Shown here piece by piece: positions 39,898-59,848 of a stretch of 64,000 nucleotides of DNA. The notes under the pieces are model-generated. The model ran no database searches. It saw nothing but the letters and a program-made list of their open reading frames with translations, and was not told where the DNA came from. The DNA is from Clostridia bacterium (GTDB taxonomy: Bacteria; Bacillota; Clostridia; Oscillospirales; Acutalibacteraceae). Within the stretch, counting starts at the first letter, position 1. Each line of letters opens with the position of its first letter. The translations under genes and the position numbers were made by a program. The stretch spans positions 37,846 through 101,845 of the forward strand of contig JAKSQM010000007.1 in assembly GCA_024404115.1 (NCBI GenBank), read 5' to 3'.

Positions 39898-41166
39898 TTA
39901 TTCAGCGTTTTTTTCTGTAAGCTCTGCGTATTTTGCAATAAGAAAATCTGCGGTTTTTTCAGCGGCTTCTCCTTTACACATCCATGCAATGTCGCTGTAT
40001 TTCCTTCTGCCTTCTTTGTAAACATCACTGTTGCTTACTTCATCAATAACAGCTTTGATGTTGTCGAAGTCTTTCTCTTCAAGCTCTTTGCCAAGTTCAG
40101 GAAGAATTTGAACACGCCAGTTCACTTCGTCAATCCATGCCGCATCATAAGGCGCTGTGTCCCATGAAGTCTGCGCATAAATAAGAGGCTTGTCAAATAT
40201 AAATGAATAGTCAAACATAATGCCCGAAAAGTCAGTTATCATTATGTCAGATTCAGAGAGAACCTTGAAATTGTCATTATCGGCATTCCAGCTGAACATA
40301 TCAGATTCTGGGAATTTCTTTTTAAGCGAGCTGAGCAGTTCTGGGTCAGAAATCTCTGATTGCGGATGAGGTCTGACAACAATTTTGTATCCTGTTTTTA
40401 CAAGTGAATCAAGAATTTTTTCACCGAATCTGTTAAGGATACTGCCATCACCCCATGACGGAGCAAGAAGAACAGTGAATGGCTTTTCTTCGTTGTTATG
40501 TTTCTCTGCTTCAAGCTTAGCTCTTTTCATCATTTCGTCAAGATATGTGCAGCCAACAACGGTTGTTTCTTTTGCAGGCAGGTTGCGCTTCTCTTCAAGA
40601 ATACGAATATATCTTTCCTGAAAATCGCCCGAAAGGAGCATTGCATCAAAGAAATCACAGCCGAACATACGGTAGCCTGTGTTATCACCAACAGCGTGAT
40701 ATATATGGGCATAATAATCTGTTTTTTTGGAGCGTTTCCACTGATAAACATCAAGACCTGGGGTGGTGGAAAGGCAGATACGGGCATTCATCATATTAAG
40801 CTTTGCAAAAGCTTTGTTGCCCTCGCCGATAAATTCGCATTTTACAAATTTATATGGCTCGTTAAGTGCAGGGTCATCGGGTGATGCTGTCCAGTATCTT
40901 ATTTCTGTTTCTCTTTTTTCAAATTCATCACAGATTGGTTTAAATACATTCCAGTATCTCTTGCTGTCAGAAAAAATTACATAAGGGATTTTTTCGTTAA
41001 CTTTTTCAGCCTTTTCACCGTTTCCACCAGAGAGCCAGAATTTCAGCTTAATAAACTGATTTCTGAAAGCGAAAATCAAGGTTGAAATAACACCGATTAC
41101 AATTGTAGCAAGCATACTGCCTGTGCCGGGGTCAATATAAAAAAGTTTCGGAATCATAAACATCAT
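39898..41166 (-). CDS. CDP-glycerol glycerophosphotransferase-like protein with N-terminal membrane anchor
   Basis: A 422-residue protein: an N-terminal 'YIDPGTGSMLATIVIGVISTLIFAF' membrane segment (residues about 10-35), then a TagF/TarF-type glycosyl/glycerophosphotransferase domain. 'LLAPSWGDGSILNRFGEKIL', 'VVRPHPQS' and 'DIMITDFSGIMFDYSF' are typical of the PF04464 family, which builds poly(glycerol- or ribitol-phosphate) chains. The ATG overlaps the stop of the YidC-phosphatase gene by 4 nt with GGAGG upstream, so the two are coupled. It probably decorates or primes a surface polymer. The substrate is inferred. Confidence 0.85.
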   Translation of the reverse strand: MMFMIPKLFYIDPGTGSMLATIVIGVISTLIFAFRNQFIKLKFWLSGGNGEKAEKVNEKIPYVIFSDSKRYWNVFKPICDEFEKRETEIRYWTASPDDPALNEPYKFVKCEFIGEGNKAFAKLNMMNARICLSTTPGLDVYQWKRSKKTDYYAHIYHAVGDNTGYRMFGCDFFDAMLLSGDFQERYIRILEEKRNLPAKETTVVGCTYLDEMMKRAKLEAEKHNNEEKPFTVLLAPSWGDGSILNRFGEKILDSLVKTGYKIVVRPHPQSEISDPELLSSLKKKFPESDMFSWNADNDNFKVLSESDIMITDFSGIMFDYSFIFDKPLIYAQTSWDTAPYDAAWIDEVNWRVQILPELGKELEEKDFDNIKAVIDEVSNSDVYKEGRRKYSDIAWMCKGEAAEKTADFLIAKYAELTEKNAE

Positions 41167-43871
41167 TTGCCAGCCTCCACTTTCTTCCAGTTGTTTTTGT
41201 CAAAGATATTGTCTTTAACTGTCCACCATTCGCCATCACTTGTGTTAAATGTGTTGCCGCAGTTTGTCAGTATATCATGCTCACATGATGTGGTAATCTG
41301 CTGAGAATGTGCCAGTTTTTCGTTACTGTTAATTTCTTTGCCTGTGAATGGGTTCACAGGATTTTTAACAGCATCTTTAACAGCAAGTGCAGGAGCGTCT
41401 GCGTTTGTCATAAATTCATCAGAAACAGTGAATTCTTTTGCATTAAAATCTTTTACCATAAGCAGCGGGTTAAAAGCTTCAACATCCAATTCATTATCAA
41501 TGTTCATGTAATCAAACTGACCGAGATCTTTGCCGTGGTCGCTGACAATAACTATCCTTGTGTTGTCAAAGGCATCGTTTTCTTTAAGATAATTTATCCA
41601 TGTGCAAACTTTGATAAGGGCGGCAACGTTTGCCTGATAATGATTTATTCTGTCCTTTGAATCCATAAGCATTGTTCTGCCCTGTGAATCCGTTTTGTTT
41701 TCCATTGGGTCGGGTTTATCTTTCTGAGCAGGAGCGAATGTCTTAGCGTCAAGTGTTACAGGCTCATGGGTTGTTGAGTTCTGTATCATAAGGAATGTGT
41801 TACTTCCGTCATTTTTAATTTCAGTCATTTTAGAAAGGTTCTGCAAAACAATATATGATGCAAGGAAGGATTTTATAGAGCCTGAATAGAATGCTGATGA
41901 CCAATAGTAGCCGTGCTGATATATGGTGTTATGCACAGCGAGAGGCGCAACTTTTGCAAGTGGATAAAATGCCGCACTTCTTCTTTGAAGTGTTTCAAAT
42001 GAGCTGGTGTATTCGCCAAATTCTTCACTTGAAACTCTATTTTTTAAAGAATAGGCATTTATTCCGTCATAATCGTTATAAATTGAAAGGTCGGGCACCC
42101 ATTTGTAACCTGCATATGGTGGGTCAACAACGGTAACCTTGTAGCCGTTGTCAGAAAATAATTTAGGCAAAACAGTAAGAGCTTCGTTGTGCTTGCTTGC
42201 AAGAGTTTCGCTATCACGCTTGTTCATTTCTGTGGGAGTGTATTCATATCCGCCAAAAAGAGCAGGGGAGCCGAAGTTTGTTGAATTGCCGAAAGAAATT
42301 GTGTTTGGATAATATGTGAAGCCTTGAAGTGCTTCTTGAATTTCTGGATTTTCTTCAAGAATATACGGAAGATATCCGCTGATTGCTCTGTCAAGCATAA
42401 AGACGATAACATTTTTTCCGTTTTTGCTTATGGGGATAATCTTATCGCTTTTTTCTTTAGCTGCGGATATTGACATATTATCTGACTGGCTTTCATTGCG
42501 GATTGTTTTGCCAATTGAAAGAGAACTGATTACAATTACAACAGAAAGGGTAACGCAGGCAATCTGATATACTCGCTTCAATACTTCTGGCTTTTTAAGG
42601 TAAACTACAAAAACAACTAAAGCCGCAAAAGCGACAACCGCTAAGTTTAATAAAAGCTCTTTTGTTGAAAATTCGGGGTAAACATCATATGCAAAGTTTG
42701 CAGACATAACGCCAAGATTTTTACCAAAGAAAAAATAATCAATCAAACCTGTTGCTGTCAGAATACTTGCAAGAACTGCAAAAACTCTTCTGATTTTTGG
42801 AGGGCTGAAAATATAAAAAATATTAAGCCATACAAAAATGAAACCAATGAAAATGCAGACAGTGTTGAATATCAGACCAAAAGGACCGTAGTTTACACTG
42901 ACAAATTCCATAGGGGAGGACTTAATCGCATCTGTTGGAATAGTAAGTGCCGTAAGCAAAAAGAAAGCACTGATACTGAAATAAAAGAGAGAATTAACAG
43001 CTTTAAGATTGATTTCTTTTTTCTCTTTGATGCTGTTTGATTTTTTGCTTCTGATTGAAAGAATAGCAGGAATCCAGCATAAAACAGCAAAAACAACAGA
43101 ACCGACACGGGTATAAAGCTGGTGCTTTGAAAGAAACACTGTGTAAATCACAGCACCAATTCCAATAAGAATAAGTGTGATGTCAACTGCTCTTCTCGGA
43201 TTTTTAATTAGCTTGAGAAGCACATTCTTGAGCAGTGAGAATAAGTTGTTGAGTGTCCAGTAAAATACAAGTCCTGCAGGGCTCTTATAAAGAATCACAA
43301 GGAAAAGAATTGCAAGACCGTAAGTCTGAACTTTATCTTTCCAAGGCAGACCTCTTGTGTAAATTATGCCAGAGATGATATTAAAAAATGTCATCAGAAC
43401 GGGCAGAAGATTTATTGCAACAGAGCCAAATTGAATAAGTCCGTCTGGCTTGCTTAAATCTGCAATTCCTAAAAATGAAACGCCGTTTAAAACATCAAGG
43501 TGAGAAAGAAAATGATATGCAGCCATAAAGAAAGGAATCTGCAAAAGCAGTGAAACAGAGCCTTTAATTGCATAAAAAGGCTTGTAATCCATTTCTCTGT
43601 AATATGCCTGCTGCATCATAAAACGCTCGTCGCCCTTAAACGTTTTTTTGATGTGGTTAACCCAATGCTCCATAGATTTTTGTTTAAGGCGTTCTTCTTC
43701 CTGAATGTCATCAGCCTTTTTATAAAGCGGAAAAACAAGAATCTGAACAGCGATGCTGACAAAAATAATTGCAATACCTGGATTTTTAAAGAGCGCATTT
43801 GAAAAAGTAAACACGGTTTCAATAAAATATTCCAGTGGGGTTACAACAATGTTGTAAATAGCTGAACCCAT
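41163..43871 (-). CDS. YidC/Oxa1-like domain fused to a sulfatase/LtaS-like domain
   Basis: A 902-residue fusion with about 11 membrane segments. Residues about 1-222 are a YidC/Oxa1 core: 'NPGIAIIFVSIAVQILVFPLYKK', then 'SVSLLLQIPFFMAAYHFL' and 'YKSPAGLVFYWTLNNLFSLLKNVLLK'. Residues about 230-450 are six or so extra membrane helices. Residues about 487-902 form an alkaline-phosphatase-superfamily domain (metal Asp494 in 'FMLDRAISG', candidate nucleophile Thr531 in 'GNSTNFGSPAL', His702 in 'STTHEP', and 'VIVSDHGKDLG', 778-780), as in LTA synthases and phosphoethanolamine transferases. The YidC groove Arg is Gln43. GGAGGC precedes the ATG. It overlaps the glycerophosphotransferase gene. Confidence 0.88.
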   Translation of the reverse strand: MGSAIYNIVVTPLEYFIETVFTFSNALFKNPGIAIIFVSIAVQILVFPLYKKADDIQEEERLKQKSMEHWVNHIKKTFKGDERFMMQQAYYREMDYKPFYAIKGSVSLLLQIPFFMAAYHFLSHLDVLNGVSFLGIADLSKPDGLIQFGSVAINLLPVLMTFFNIISGIIYTRGLPWKDKVQTYGLAILFLVILYKSPAGLVFYWTLNNLFSLLKNVLLKLIKNPRRAVDITLILIGIGAVIYTVFLSKHQLYTRVGSVVFAVLCWIPAILSIRSKKSNSIKEKKEINLKAVNSLFYFSISAFFLLTALTIPTDAIKSSPMEFVSVNYGPFGLIFNTVCIFIGFIFVWLNIFYIFSPPKIRRVFAVLASILTATGLIDYFFFGKNLGVMSANFAYDVYPEFSTKELLLNLAVVAFAALVVFVVYLKKPEVLKRVYQIACVTLSVVIVISSLSIGKTIRNESQSDNMSISAAKEKSDKIIPISKNGKNVIVFMLDRAISGYLPYILEENPEIQEALQGFTYYPNTISFGNSTNFGSPALFGGYEYTPTEMNKRDSETLASKHNEALTVLPKLFSDNGYKVTVVDPPYAGYKWVPDLSIYNDYDGINAYSLKNRVSSEEFGEYTSSFETLQRRSAAFYPLAKVAPLAVHNTIYQHGYYWSSAFYSGSIKSFLASYIVLQNLSKMTEIKNDGSNTFLMIQNSTTHEPVTLDAKTFAPAQKDKPDPMENKTDSQGRTMLMDSKDRINHYQANVAALIKVCTWINYLKENDAFDNTRIVIVSDHGKDLGQFDYMNIDNELDVEAFNPLLMVKDFNAKEFTVSDEFMTNADAPALAVKDAVKNPVNPFTGKEINSNEKLAHSQQITTSCEHDILTNCGNTFNTSDGEWWTVKDNIFDKNNWKKVEAGK

Positions 43872-53617: not shown

Positions 53618-53719
53618 CAATAAAAGCATTTATATATATAAAATAAATAAATTTTCTTTACATCGAGTGCTAAATGTGTTAATATTTAGTAAATCAAATT
53701 ATTGGAGGCATTGATTCTT

Positions 53720-55531
53720 ATGAGATCAATTAAAAAGATTATTGCATTGCTTATGGCAGTGATTATGCTTGCTTTTTCATGTTCTGTTGCATCATATGCA
53801 AAAGATAATGAAAAGCAGATTCCATCAATTATTGTCCCCGGCATTTTCCAGAGCGAAGTTTTCTATTATGAAAACGGCGAAAAAGTATGTGATGAAGACG
53901 GCGACCCTCTCAGCCCGCCTTTCTTTATGGATTCAACCGATAAAATCGTAAAGCAGGTTGTGCCGAAGCTCATTTTCCCTCTTCTCAGACTTCTCATAAC
54001 TCAGAAAGATAAAAATGAAATGGCAGCCACCGCTCTTGCAGATGCACTTTGCAGTGTGCTTATGACAAAACAGCTCAGCGATAACAACGGCAAATTCATC
54101 AACGATGTTCGTGCCACAAAATATAATGACAGCTTTGCTGATTTATCAAAGCATGATCAGCAGTATATCCTTGATAATCTTCCTCTTGAAAGATATATCG
54201 AAAAAGGCGGAGCAGACACACTTTATGTTTTCTCATACGCTTCACTTGGCAATATGATTGACACTGCAAATGAGCTTTATGAGTTCATTCAGTTTGTTAA
54301 AAAAGATTCAGGCTCAGATAAAGTTAATATCGTTCCCATAAGTCAGGGCGGCTCAATTGCAAACGCACTTCTTCAGGTTTATGCAGACAAAGGCATCTCA
54401 CTTGCAGAGGATATTAACCGTGTTGTTTATGTTGTTCCTGCTCTTGACGGCTCAATTCTCGTTGGCGAAATCTATGAAAACGGACTTATTGACGATGATA
54501 ACGAGCTTTATCGTGATATGATTCCATCACTTATGGGCGAGGATGACTGGACAGCTTACCTTGTGAATATTCTTCTTCGTATTCTCCCAAATGCAGAGCT
54601 TAACAATATTCTTGATAAAGTTGCAGACACCTTGGCAGGGGAGTACCTTGTAAATTCAACACTTATTTGGGGACTTGTTCCCTCTGGCAATTATCCTGCC
54701 GCAAGAGAAAAATATCTTTCAACTCCAGAGCGTGCAGAGATTGCAAAGCAGACAGATTGGTTCTATAACGCACAGAAAAACCGCTTCAATAATATTCTCA
54801 AAGCAATTGATGACGGCGTTGAAGTTTTTGACATAGTTGATTACAACTATACTCTTTATGAACTTGTCGATTCATGGGATGATGTTAATGCAGACGGCAT
54901 TATTCAGTTAAGCTCAGAGTCAATGGGCTGCTACTCAGCAGGCGTTGATGTTAAGCTCCCTGCGGATTATGTTTCACCTGCAAATAACTGCAAAGACCCA
55001 AAAAATCATGACCATTCAGACCCCAACGGAATAGTTGACGCATATTGTGGACTTTTGCCCGAAACAACATTCTTCTTCTACGGTCAGGATCATGAAAAAA
55101 CGGGCAACAACAATGTTATTATGTATCTTGTTGCGGAGCTTCTCACAAATCCCGAATTTAAGGATGTTCATTCATATCCCGACAGATTCCCTCAGTTCAA
55201 TGTTGCAAGAGAGTCAAAGCATCTTATGCGTGATGTTGCAAAGATGAAAGCTTATAATACATCAGCTTTCACAGCGGAGCAGAAAAAAGAGTTTAATTCA
55301 GCAATCGAAAAGGCAGAGTCAGCTATTGAAAACACAGCTCTTTCAGCAGAAGAATTTGAACTTGCAAAAACAAACTTCTATGAAACAACAAGCAGAATCA
55401 TCAACGGTGACCCTGTACCCGAAAAGCAGAGCTTCGATTTTGAGGCACTTCTCACAAAGATAATGAAGCTTGCAAGTGATGTTATGTTTATGCTCTTTAA
55501 GGGCAAAGGCTTCAGCGAATTATGTAAATGA
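53720..55531 (+). CDS. secreted alpha/beta hydrolase (lipase-like)
   Basis: A 603-residue exported protein with a signal peptide (about residues 1-28, ending 'VASYAK') and a lipase-like alpha/beta hydrolase region. The putative oxyanion loop is 'IIVPGIFQS' and the nucleophile is in 'VPISQGGSIANALL' (Ser in S-Q-G-G). A helical C-terminal tail follows ('FTAEQKKEFNSAIEKAESAIENTALSAEEFELAK'), like a FIVAR-type repeat. The substrate is unknown. ATG 53720 follows TTGGAGG. It is a single gene, divergent from the PHP gene. Confidence 0.75.
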   Translation: MRSIKKIIALLMAVIMLAFSCSVASYAKDNEKQIPSIIVPGIFQSEVFYYENGEKVCDEDGDPLSPPFFMDSTDKIVKQVVPKLIFPLLRLLITQKDKNEMAATALADALCSVLMTKQLSDNNGKFINDVRATKYNDSFADLSKHDQQYILDNLPLERYIEKGGADTLYVFSYASLGNMIDTANELYEFIQFVKKDSGSDKVNIVPISQGGSIANALLQVYADKGISLAEDINRVVYVVPALDGSILVGEIYENGLIDDDNELYRDMIPSLMGEDDWTAYLVNILLRILPNAELNNILDKVADTLAGEYLVNSTLIWGLVPSGNYPAAREKYLSTPERAEIAKQTDWFYNAQKNRFNNILKAIDDGVEVFDIVDYNYTLYELVDSWDDVNADGIIQLSSESMGCYSAGVDVKLPADYVSPANNCKDPKNHDHSDPNGIVDAYCGLLPETTFFFYGQDHEKTGNNNVIMYLVAELLTNPEFKDVHSYPDRFPQFNVARESKHLMRDVAKMKAYNTSAFTAEQKKEFNSAIEKAESAIENTALSAEEFELAKTNFYETTSRIINGDPVPEKQSFDFEALLTKIMKLASDVMFMLFKGKGFSELCK

Positions 55532-56769: not shown

Positions 56770-56800
56770 ATTAGGGATATTAAAACAAAGGTGATTGTAT

Positions 56801-58072
56801 ATGAGTAACTCAGGCAATTCAGATAACAAAAACGGCGAAGGCTTTTTCTCGGATATCAACACTTATAACGAAAATAATTCAAAAAGCGACAATTTCCGTG
56901 TGAATATCCCTGTTAAAGAGGTTATGGATTCCTACAACAAAAATTCGTATTACGAAAATAAAAAAAGCGACCCCAGAGATATACCAATTGGCAAAGGCTA
57001 TTATAACCCTCATAAAGAGGAACGATATGACCACAACGCATATCTCAGAGCTCAGCAGCAAAAAAATCAGCAGGCTCAGCACAAACAGCAGACACAGCAT
57101 ACACAGCTTAAACCGCAGGGCTCTTACAGCAGTGCCACTAAGCAATTCGGCAAGGCAATGAAAAAGAAAAAAAGCGGTTGCGGATGTGGCACAATGTTTG
57201 TTTGCCTTTTGCTTGTTCTGGCAATTGGCTTTGCAGGTCTTTACGGCTATGTTTTCGCAATGGCTGGCAAGGTTCAGTCTGCGGAGCTTCAGGCAGATTA
57301 CAGTGTTGACTTAAAGAGAAGCGATGATGTTTTAAACATTCTTCTTATCGGTCTTGATAAAGCAGACGGCGGAGTTTCACGCTCTGACTCTATGATGCTT
57401 CTTTCAATTGATAAATCCACAAGAACGCTTAAACTCACTTCGTTCCTCCGTGATATGTGGGTTAAAATCCCAGGCTATTATAATGCAAAGCTCAACGCTG
57501 CATATGCCTATGGCGGAGCACAGCTGACAGTTGACACTATCGAGTCAAATTTCAACATTGATATTGACCATTTTGTGCTTGTTGATTTTGATATGTTTGA
57601 GCAGATTATCGACTCCCTCGGCGGTGTTACAGTTGATATAACCGAAAGAGAAGCGGAGTTCCTCAGAACTCATACAAGAGTTAAGGTTCCTGCTGGCGAA
57701 AACACTCTTAACGGTGAATACGCACTTATTTATTCAAGAATCAGAAAGCTGGATTCAGACTTTTACCGCACACAAAGGCAAAGAAAAGTTATGACATCCA
57801 TTATCAACAAAGCTAAGAGGAGCAATCCCATAACGCTTGTTAATATGGTTTCAGACATTATGCCTCTTATTACAACAGATATTAACCGCTCAGAGTTGAC
57901 AGGTCTTGCATTCTCTGCTTTGAAATATATCAGATATGATATTGACCAGCTGCAGGTTCCTGCTGACGGCACATATTCTTCGCAGATGATTTCAGGTCAA
58001 TCTGCTCTTGTTCCAAATATGGAAGCGAATAAAACAAATATTTATAATTTCATTTATAACTCAGGTGATTGA
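56801..58072 (+). CDS. LytR-CpsA-Psr (LCP) wall-polymer ligase
   Basis: A 423-residue LCP protein. A long, Gln/Asn-rich cytoplasmic N-terminus (about 1-120) precedes one membrane helix ('CGTMFVCLLLVLAIGFAGLYGYVFAM') and the LCP catalytic domain: 'LLIGLD', the phosphate-binding Arg in 'TSFLRDMWV', and 'ALIYSRIRKLDSDFYRTQRQRKV'. LCP enzymes transfer undecaprenyl-linked teichoic acid or capsule to peptidoglycan. ATG 56801 is preceded by AAAGGTGATTGT. It precedes the exonuclease by 2 nt. Confidence 0.92.
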   Translation: MSNSGNSDNKNGEGFFSDINTYNENNSKSDNFRVNIPVKEVMDSYNKNSYYENKKSDPRDIPIGKGYYNPHKEERYDHNAYLRAQQQKNQQAQHKQQTQHTQLKPQGSYSSATKQFGKAMKKKKSGCGCGTMFVCLLLVLAIGFAGLYGYVFAMAGKVQSAELQADYSVDLKRSDDVLNILLIGLDKADGGVSRSDSMMLLSIDKSTRTLKLTSFLRDMWVKIPGYYNAKLNAAYAYGGAQLTVDTIESNFNIDIDHFVLVDFDMFEQIIDSLGGVTVDITEREAEFLRTHTRVKVPAGENTLNGEYALIYSRIRKLDSDFYRTQRQRKVMTSIINKAKRSNPITLVNMVSDIMPLITTDINRSELTGLAFSALKYIRYDIDQLQVPADGTYSSQMISGQSALVPNMEANKTNIYNFIYNSGD

Positions 58073-58981: not shown

Positions 58982-59812
58982 TTATTTTGAAATTGCTTGA
59001 ACAGTTATATCTGAACTGGATGAAACTATAAATCCACAGCTGATACTGCCGCCATTCGGTACATATGAATTGCACTGTGATGTAATTTTTAACCCGTCAG
59101 ATGTGCTGTCTGCTGAACAGCTCCATGTTTTTTCAACAGAAGCATCACCGCTCAACTTAACGATAACTGATGAATCGCCAGCTAAGCTTGCACCGTTGTT
59201 TTTCTGTGTCAATTCAATCTGATACATATTTTTGCCGCCCGACTTCCACTTGTTCACAACTCTTGCAGTTGTGTAAACATCATTGTCAGATGTTAAAAAT
59301 GCTGTACTCTTTGAATTGCCCGATTTCACAAGCTCACCGTTGCTGACCGTGGGAGTATTCTCACTTGCTTCTTCTCCGCTTTCAGATGTTTCTGAATTTT
59401 CATCAACTGTGGTGGCAGTAGCCATAGCAGGGGATTCAAGGTTTGTGTTGCCCTTTGCAGGTGTGCCGAGAACATCAGTTGTTTTACTTGAATACTGAAC
59501 AATCAGCATTGCGTCCTGCTCATTTACAACACCGTCGCCGTTTAAGTCAGCGGCACTTTTTTGTGAATCGTCAGCCTTGCCGCCTTTGCTTATGCTGATT
59601 ATTTCAAAAGCATCTGCCGCATCAACCTTGCCGTCGTGGTTAATATCACCTTTTTTGCCGCTTGATGTGTTCAGCGTAATTGATGTTCCGCTTGCAAGAA
59701 TTGAAATTACAAGGAAAATGCTTGAAAGAAGCACAGCAGTTGAAGCATATAAAATAATGGGAAGCTTAGAGCCTGGAACTATTTTTATTAAAGAGCGTTT
59801 TTTCTTTTTCAA
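58982..59812 (-). CDS. membrane-anchored dockerin and CBM-like protein
   Basis: A 276-residue protein with an N-terminal basic stretch and one membrane helix (residues about 17-40), a type I dockerin (about 55-110, with the two Ca-binding loops 'DINHDGKVD' and 'DLNGDGVVN'), a Ser/Thr/Glu-rich linker, and a C-terminal beta domain (about 180-276; 'VVNKWKSGGKNMYQIELT', 'YVPNGGSISCGFIV') resembling a CBM2-type cellulose-binding module. No catalytic domain is present. The start is TTG 59812, with GGTGA 5 nt upstream; ATG 59833 has no site and lies just after the promoter. Confidence 0.82.
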   Translation of the reverse strand: MKKKKRSLIKIVPGSKLPIILYASTAVLLSSIFLVISILASGTSITLNTSSGKKGDINHDGKVDAADAFEIISISKGGKADDSQKSAADLNGDGVVNEQDAMLIVQYSSKTTDVLGTPAKGNTNLESPAMATATTVDENSETSESGEEASENTPTVSNGELVKSGNSKSTAFLTSDNDVYTTARVVNKWKSGGKNMYQIELTQKNNGASLAGDSSVIVKLSGDASVEKTWSCSADSTSDGLKITSQCNSYVPNGGSISCGFIVSSSSDITVQAISK

Positions 59813-59848
59813 AGAATCACCAACTAACTGCATTATTATATATAGTAA

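Follow-up and report, generated by a model that had tools for sequence, protein, structure and literature searches.

What does a YidC/Oxa1-type membrane domain do when it is joined, in one chain, to a predicted phosphotransferase outside the cell? The question is raised by P0001, a protein encoded in the 64,000-nucleotide stretch of Clostridia bacterium DNA analysed here (contig JAKSQM010000007.1; the window). Throughout, Y denotes the YidC module, G a PF04464 module and A the outer phosphotransferase; P0001 is a Y-A chain.

One chain joins YidC to an outer phosphatase-superfamily domain

The reading frame of P0001 comprises 902 codons on the minus strand and begins with ATG, with AGGAGG directly upstream. 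A sequence-only reading, which gave no strand, had described a single 902-residue frame with a YidC core at about residues 1-222, extra membrane helices and an outer phosphatase-superfamily domain with its catalytic motifs, and all of these assignments are borne out. The profile check of the YidC core gave 84.6 bits with PF02096 over residues 32-219 (cut-off 35) and 84.9 bits with TIGR03592 (cut-off 84.3), and PF00884 matched residues 486-785 with 33.9 bits (cut-off 25). Averaged hydropathy and loop charge predict the YidC helices, a two-helix linker, five more helices and a C-terminal domain outside the cell (Table 1). The helices of an AlphaFold2 model built from 10 sequences (mean pLDDT 71.9, pTM 0.63) agree with this hydropathy, and its C-terminal domain is alpha/beta, confidence being low near the active site.

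A survey of the distribution of the fusion found long relatives as a single chain in many assemblies, and P0001 shares 35-48% identity with the others (blastp); P0001 is therefore not an artefact of frame or assembly. A chance or assembly-made fusion is likewise excluded by these relatives and by the conserved residues of the aligned fusions. The fusion cluster holds 46 ORFs, and 40 were aligned after five short or broken ones and one duplicate were dropped; the alignment includes the window's own fusion and L010, an 842-residue piece without the first 74 residues.

Table 1. Features of the fusion gene and its partner in the window
Feature	Position	Strand	Basis
Y-A fusion gene P0001, 902 aa	41163..43871	minus	alignment of 40 long fusions including the window's
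Y module, residues 1-222, interface helix and membrane core	43206..43871	minus	PF02096; E. coli YidC alignment; hydropathy; model helices
Gln43 codon, aligned with the conserved groove Arg (R366 in E. coli)	43743..43745	minus	E. coli YidC alignment
Linker, two membrane helices, residues 223-294	42990..43205	minus	hydropathy/charge; model helices 225-247 and 252-276
A-module membrane helices, five, residues 295-449	42525..42989	minus	hydropathy/charge; model helices
A catalytic domain, residues 486-902, predicted outside the cell	41166..42416	minus	PF00884, 33.9 bits; conserved residues
G module P0002, 422 aa, PF04464 (CDP-glycerol glycerophosphotransferase-like)	39898..41166	minus	PF04464, 48.7 bits (cut-off 22.1)

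The outer domain resembles Thr-type phosphotransferases

Sulfatases carry the formylglycine motif C/S-x-P-x-R, and the other PF00884 protein detected in the window genome has Cys in such a sequence (Cys-Ser-Pro-Ala-Arg). The corresponding site is Thr in all 11 Y-A rows compared, and the sulfatase reading was dropped because this Thr stands where the formylglycine residue would be. LtaS/EptA-type phosphotransferases use a Thr nucleophile with Asp/Glu, Asp and His as metal ligands, and have five membrane helices followed by an outer catalytic domain. In A, the corresponding residues Asp494, Thr531, Asp778 and His779, together with His702, are invariant in all 40 aligned long fusions, and the five-helix layout with an outer domain is predicted from hydropathy, charge and model helices; four stand-alone A proteins also have five membrane helices by hydropathy. 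The likeness in helices, outer domain and Asp, Thr, His and Asp-His residues extends to PptA as described in part of PMC10434233.

Unlike these enzymes, A comes together with YidC and a CDP-alcohol phosphotransferase, either in one chain or as partners, and the curated LtaS, EptA and PptA models found no match in it; NCBIfam gave only weak arylsulfatase and PehA matches far below cut-off. P0001 is thus not established as LtaS, and the earlier description as LtaS-like stands for the architecture. In one genome (G160), a 464-residue A protein of the Y-A type has no YidC part and is encoded next to G and a Y-A gene, so not every A carries a fused Y, which counts against the relay proposed below.

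A predicted TagF-like partner overlaps the fusion gene

The gene for P0002 overlaps that of P0001 by 4 bases. P0002 has a single N-terminal membrane helix with a YIDPGTGS motif, and its profile matches the TagF-like Cps3D (8qoy) weakly (E 0.0036). R265-P266-H267, D312 and S314 are invariant in 38/38 aligned G domains. From these matches we predict that P0002 is a TagF-like CDP-alcohol phosphotransferase. It shares the PF04464 match and the invariant RPH and DxS residues with TagF/TarF-type CDP-glycerol glycerophosphotransferases, but differs from them in the YIDPGTGS membrane anchor of window-type G and in the position of G relatives near choline or phosphonate activation genes.

A G of the P0002 kind is present in 26 of 35 distinct sources and adjoins in 25, the split system described below among them. 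It is out of view in the other nine, six of which are in genomes with G elsewhere, and the 100% complete genome G436, which has a Y-A fusion, gave no P0002 match at 1e-10; both observations weigh against the relay. Promoter-like sites near the operon numbered 21, hardly an excess over the 16.0 (sd 4.2) found in shuffles.

All pairwise module fusions occur among relatives

Across relatives, every pairwise fusion exists: Y-A with G, Y with G-A, and Y-G with a separate A. In the split locus (L089), a separate 232-residue YidC lies beside a single 1042-residue G-A chain whose PF00884 score, 24.1, is slightly below the cut-off of 25; in its A domain, Ser occupies the nucleophile column and the H702 column lacks His, a point against the relay. 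The two Y-G chains that were scanned with Pfam (L108 and L107) exceed the cut-offs of both PF02096 and PF04464. An A gene adjoins Y-G in four of seven loci (L107, L108, L112 and L074), and its absence next to the other three is a further point against the relay. In the genomes of those three (G074, G096 and G172), A-like sequences were matched weakly elsewhere, on different contigs, and one of these matches (L072) is without the Thr; a P0001 query at 1e-8 found no neighbouring A gene at the Y-G loci L117 and L118. Hydropathy of the profiled chains agrees with G inside and A outside.

The YidC module of Y-A chains lacks the groove charge

Like the YidC/Oxa1/Alb3 insertases, whose profiles it matches, the Y module of Y-A chains has an interface helix, a membrane core and a first loop that is long and helical, and it keeps Pro48 and Tyr204-Trp205. 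It differs from them in the groove. At the position of the conserved groove Arg, 32 of the 40 fusions have Asn, four Ser, three Gln (Q43 in the window) and one a gap, whereas Arg or Lys occupies this column in 20/20 stand-alone YidC proteins examined and in 7/7 Y-G chains; the positive residue typical of YidC is absent from 39/40 fusions, the remaining one being the gap. As judged from this alignment, Y-A YidC has lost its groove charge, and Trp205 is kept in all 40. Further differences from the insertases are the fused phosphotransferase, the long branch that leads to Y-A YidC as a group apart, and a second YidC frame of 302-456 residues in 25 of the 27 Y-A, split or Y-G-type genomes searched, a point in favour of the relay; the window genome also holds such a frame. 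The Y module of Y-A chains is a YidC paralogue whose role as an ordinary insertase has probably been lost. The YidC of Y-G chains looks, by sequence, to have been recruited separately, and since it keeps the basic groove residue it may have insertase activity, which weighs against the relay.

These features bear on two other accounts of Y. It might be a private chaperone or insertase that inserts, folds or helps to metalate A or its partners, with A an ordinary lipid-dependent phosphotransferase. Such a role would fit the PF02096 and TIGR03592 scores and the groove charge retained in Y-G YidC, and part of PMC10550928 links exoenzyme metalation during export to the YidC-containing Sec machinery. 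We regard it as unlikely, given the additional YidC in nearly all of these genomes and the Y-G system, in which Y is fused to G and A is a separate protein. The Y-A groove also argues against it: part of PMC8920935 reports that S. mutans YidC2 with a neutral groove residue is inactive and is rescued by replacing the equivalent Trp with Asn or Ser, and Y-A chains have a combination similar to the inactive one. The same source reports that E. coli R366A alone remained functional, which counts against the relay. Alternatively, Y could be a mere scaffold for G and A at the membrane, with the intermediate moved by another flippase, or with independent substrates for G and A. Every pairwise fusion fits simple complex formation of this sort, but a scaffold has no need to conserve N154, T161, N164, S167 and N208, which are kept in 40/40 Y-A fusions, or for YidC to be chosen twice, and we give this account little credence.

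Headgroup-activation genes lie near relatives of the fusion

Of the 35 sources, 15 have headgroup-activation cassettes in the flanking sequence retrieved (six phosphonate, six choline and three LicC/CobD-like), with CMP-aminoethylphosphonate, CDP-choline or a LicC/CobD-like product as predicted products. Representatives exceed the cut-offs of TIGR02320 (PEP mutase), TIGR03297 (phosphonopyruvate decarboxylase), TIGR03301 (AEP aminotransferase) and PF01633 (choline kinase). Cassettes are likewise present next to Y-G in G430 and in G793, a genome from another class. PEP mutase or choline kinase was detected in 10/12 Y-A or split genomes and 19/188 others (Fisher p 4.9e-8, genomes not being independent). 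At 83.8% completeness, the window genome gave no match to PEP mutase or to choline kinase, and the fusion has no cassette nearby, contrary to the relay; that genome has only a LicC-like gene, on a separate contig from the fusion.

LicD-like proteins near some loci could be alternative transferases, again counting against the relay, and they lend themselves to another account, in which A is an LtaS-type enzyme that makes or primes a glycerol-phosphate polymer from phosphatidylglycerol and the nearby choline or phosphonate genes modify this polymer through LicD-like enzymes. The five membrane helices with an outer Thr-type domain, as in LtaS, and the resemblance of G to CDP-glycerol transferases fit this account. 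LtaS models nonetheless give no match, and headgroup genes in Y-A genomes far exceed the background; we consider it very improbable.

The activation genes near fusion relatives are of the same kinds as those of the Lic-1 (CDP-choline) and Pnt (CMP-aminoethylphosphonate) pathways. In the parts of PMC10434233 and PMC6697681 that treat these pathways, the last step of Lic-1 is LicD and none is identified for Pnt; the main texts of both do not mention YidC. CMP-aminoethylphosphonate is said there to be captured "presumably" by carbohydrate or lipid nucleophiles (PMC6697681, in part), and the choline-phosphate donor of the outer transferase PptA is presented as a gap (PMC10434233, in part).

A proposed relay across the membrane

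We propose, at what we judge to be an evenly balanced probability, a three-module surface-decoration system that handles a small phosphorylated or phosphonylated headgroup X, with P0001 as its membrane and outer part. X would be choline, aminoethylphosphonate or similar, varying by genome, and a LicC/PntC-type cytidylyltransferase would convert it to CDP-X or CMP-X. Cytoplasmic G (P0002) would then take phospho-X off the nucleotide and load it onto a lipid of the membrane or a lipid-linked acceptor; Y would carry the loaded lipid outward across the membrane, or position it there; and the outer A domain would form a phospho-Thr531 intermediate and pass phospho-X to a surface glycan or other acceptor. 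The module identities, the conserved residues, the exchange of modules between chains, the predicted topology and the association with headgroup cassettes in relatives come from the sequence data; we infer the lipid intermediate, the crossing by Y and its direction, and the acceptor.

The relay is supported by the 4-base overlap with P0002, the adjacency of G and the pairwise module fusions; by the headgroup cassettes near relatives and their enrichment in the genome survey; by the Thr nucleophile in 40/40 fusions, as against Cys in the genome's other PF00884 protein; and by the missing groove charge with Trp205 kept, seen in the light of S. mutans YidC2. It is also supported by part of PMC10491306, in which YidC and other Oxa1-family proteins scramble phospholipids in vitro. 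More tentatively, and with some doubt, we suggest that the YidC family has twice independently been turned from an insertase into a lipid hand-over unit between G and A, with the headgroup crossing the membrane by way of the YidC groove.

Discussion

The sequence-only reading fares well in its two domains, catalytic residues and transferase interpretation, while its LtaS-like label stands for the architecture. Its idea that the YidC groove holds a lipid during outer head-group transfer is compatible with our data and now better motivated. It did not include the PF04464 partner whose gene overlaps that of P0001, the further fusion types, the cassettes for headgroup activation or the lost groove charge.

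One scan of viral contigs yielded no confirmed relative of the fusion, and plasmid matches of P0001 (9 records) covered the YidC part only, at 26-32% identity, with none for P0002; with viral relatives unconfirmed and plasmid matches limited to the YidC part, a mobile or viral origin is not supported. Among the titles and abstract openings of the matches listed, in a search outside which most subscription papers lie, we found no published account of the fusion.

What emerges looks like a three-part machine that places choline-phosphate-like or aminoethylphosphonate-like groups on the cell surface of some gut Clostridia. The scrambling of lipids by Oxa1 insertases in vitro raises the question of whether this is ever their native job; because YidC is here fused to predicted enzymes of the two membrane faces, and the genes travel with headgroup activation, native lipid handling becomes testable in one protein. 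If true, the relay would give the universal YidC family a new role, dedicated lipid translocation by bacterial members of the Oxa1 family, and would fill in the final steps that are still missing from the use of CMP-aminoethylphosphonate. It offers candidates for the capture of CMP-aminoethylphosphonate discussed in part of PMC6697681 and for the choline-phosphate donor of the outer transferase discussed in part of PMC10434233. Phosphorylcholine and phosphonate coats on gut bacteria are relevant to contact with the host.

One chain carries a YidC domain and a catalytic domain predicted to lie outside

The sequence-only reading had claimed a single 902-residue frame joining a YidC core to a phosphatase-superfamily domain, and our searches bear this out. 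In the encoded fusion, P0001, Pfam places the YidC/Oxa1 module (Y; PF02096) at residues 32-219 (84.6 bits, cut-off 35) and the alkaline-phosphatase-superfamily domain (A; PF00884) at residues 486-785 (33.9 bits, cut-off 25), and the NCBIfam model TIGR03592 scores 84.9 bits against a cut-off of 84.3. By our own reading of the alignment, R366 and Y517 of E. coli YidC correspond to residues 43 and 205. The catalytic residues previously named (Asp494, Thr531, His702 and Asp778-His779) were correct and are invariant in all 40 aligned long fusions, the window's included, a set drawn from a cluster of 46 open reading frames by removing five short or broken ones and one duplicate.

Hydropathy averaged across the 40 fusions, together with loop charge, fits a chain with an interface helix and YidC helices that terminate on the inner side, followed by two linker helices, five further helices and an outer catalytic domain. 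The final two YidC helices form one merged hydropathy peak but are separate in an AlphaFold2 model of middling confidence (pLDDT 71.9, pTM 0.63; below 50 around T531 and H702). Five helices also precede the same kind of domain in the four profiled stand-alone A proteins of a more distant system.

Features of the window and of related loci (Y-A, fusion of Y and A; Y-G, fusion of Y and a PF04464 domain, G)
Feature	Location	Strand	Remarks
Y-A fusion gene P0001	window 41163-43871	minus	single open frame, 902 codons; ATG preceded by AGGAGG
P0002, PF04464 protein	window		422 aa; N-terminal helix, YIDPGTGS motif
ORF	window 53702-55531		609 aa, TTG start; no Pfam match at 0.001
LytR-CpsA-Psr protein	window 56795-58072		13 kb from fusion; enzyme kind attaching glycopolymers to the wall
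Type I dockerin protein	window 58982-59833		hints at cellulosome-like assemblies in the organism
Y-A fusion and partner	L010:1744-5888		each broken across two frames in the assembly; read as pieces only
Y-A fusion	L065:7947-10577		catalytic residues intact; genome (G436) rated complete
A protein of Y-A kind	L088:3176-4570		464 aa; genome G160
LicC-like cytidylyltransferase fused to CobD-like PLP enzyme	L068:1593-3509; L011:6136-7950; L085; L106		614-aa gene in L085, 611-aa gene in L106
Aminotransferase-like gene, DUF2284 protein, LicC-like enzyme	L108:4860-7260; L112:4171-6680		beside Y-G; possibly another headgroup pathway lacking both PEP mutase and choline kinase

Most Y-A fusions are accompanied by a G-type partner

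The start of P0002, the G-type partner gene, overlaps the fusion stop codon by 4 bases, and a profile of its product and five relatives matches the TagF-like polymerase Cps3D (8qoy; E 0.0036). We examined 36 sources, 35 of them distinct after removal of a duplicate and several sharing one genome; 26 of the 35 hold a partner of this kind, adjacent in 25, with the split system L089 counted among these. A genome-wide check of seven of the nine partnerless sources (all but L005 and L006) located a G copy elsewhere for six (G158 twice, G455 twice, G334, G284) and found no P0002 match in the genome of one, G436. By our count, G genes equal or are fewer than fusions in seven multi-fusion genomes (fusions to G genes: G158 and G455, 4 to 1 each; G257, 5 to 4; G284, 4 to 2 plus a stop-containing fragment; G334, 3 to 2; G357, 2 to 1; G312, 2 to 2), which would fit one loading enzyme serving several transferases.

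The three modules are shuffled among chains

In L089 (genome G194), a separate 232-aa YidC lies beside a 1042-aa chain with the G domain first and an alkaline-phosphatase-like domain last (PF00884 24.1 bits, slightly below the cut-off of 25). The more distant system contains Y-G fusions, as in L108 (PF02096 106.4 bits, PF04464 44.3 bits) and L107 (114.3 and 38.4 bits); L110, L111, L112, L113 and L074 are of this type by homology and length, and a genome search with PF02096 recovered the YidC portion within the same reading frame at all seven loci, as well as in G336 and G430. Since Y-A, G-A and Y-G chains all occur, the modules are joined in every pairwise way.

A separate A protein adjoins the Y-G gene in L107, L108, L112 and L074, and all four conserve the Asp, Thr, His and Asp-His residues. 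No adjacent A gene is present in L110, L111 or L113, whose genomes contain weakly matching A-like sequences on different contigs, and a less sensitive search saw none near Y-G in L117 or L118. Two A-like matches of G074 were aligned; Thr is kept in one and missing from the other. G160 encodes an A domain of the Y-A type that lacks YidC and, by our reading, is preceded by just one N-terminal helix, showing that such a domain can exist without YidC; its gene is flanked by a G gene on one side and, on the other, by a Y-A fusion truncated at the end of the contig. The topology of the chains agrees with a cytoplasmic G and an A on the outer side of the membrane.

The Y-A YidC domains have lost the groove charge

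We built a tree from 68 YidC domains (40 Y-A, 1 separate, 7 Y-G, 20 stand-alone; L055 and L061, matches with in-frame stops, excluded), in which a 100/100 branch of length 2.45 divides the Y-A domains and the separate one from all others. The Y-G domains group together (100/100) on the stand-alone side, where their neighbour is the stand-alone YidC of the window genome itself (99/95). The G domains split likewise (9 Y-G versus 28 G and one G-A; 100/100). With midpoint rooting, the YidC tree suggests two recruitments.

The groove residue is R or K in 20/20 stand-alone and 7/7 Y-G domains; it is N in 32, S in four, Q in three and a gap in one of the Y-A domains, and S in the separate YidC. Trp205 is conserved in 40/40 Y-A fusions. 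According to PMC8920935, a chimeric S. mutans YidC2 was inactive once a neutral or negative residue replaced the groove Arg; neutral R73Q was rescued when a nearby Trp became Asn or Ser, not Val or Ile, R73D was rescued by different second-site changes, and E. coli R366A by itself remained functional. The missing charge, the retained Trp205 and these mutant data therefore make loss of the ordinary insertase role likely, though not certain.

Headgroup activation genes co-occur with the system

Within about 8 kb of flank, where the contig allowed, 15 of 35 sources have activation cassettes: six phosphonate, six choline kinase plus LicC-like (some accompanied by a LicB-like carrier) and three with the LicC-CobD-like fusion, in which the CobD model scores below its cut-off and which may synthesise CDP-ethanolamine or CDP-aminopropanol. 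Phosphonate cassettes also occur in G793, from another class of the phylum, and at the G430 Y-G locus.

We surveyed 200 genomes of the family (157 good; 135 genera), identical for every query. Fifteen had any match and 12, from 11 genera, carry a Y-A or split system, the weak matches of G074, G096 and G172 to other A proteins not being counted; a partner of the P0002 kind is present in every one of the 12. Among the 200 genomes, 14 contain PEP mutase and 16 choline kinase; one or both occur in 10/12 Y-A or split genomes versus 19/188 others (Fisher p 4.9e-8, a guide only because the genomes are not independent), and in 13/18 versus 16/182 once six Y-G genomes are added. The two exceptions are G160 and the window genome (83.8% complete), where neither enzyme was matched. 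The latter encodes a 302-aa LicC-like protein, 48% identical to that of the L009 phosphonate cassette, on another contig without adjoining cassette genes. Its single other PF00884 match carries a sulfatase-type Cys; this search could miss A proteins as divergent as that of L108, which Pfam missed.

Seven named relative loci, all metagenome-assembled so that odd placements may be binning errors, fall in Lachnospiraceae (2), Clostridiales (2), Ruminococcus, a Spirochaetales and an Atopobiaceae assembly. In a phylum sample, 3/378 genomes including the window's were positive at 1e-40, and one scan of viral contigs confirmed no relative.

A proposed route for headgroup transfer

We propose that a small headgroup would be activated on a nucleotide inside the cell, with G predicted inside and A outside, so that something must cross the membrane. 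A headgroup-bearing lipid would be the simplest carrier, because known enzymes of A's kind take lipid donors. PMC10434233 agrees, and PMC10491306 describes lipid scrambling by YidC in vitro. The Y module may move or present this lipid, a step we hold tentatively, at a little under an even chance. That A is a phosphotransferase is quite probable. The complete chain of steps we regard as evenly balanced; that the system is linked to headgroup decoration is, in our judgement, quite probable.
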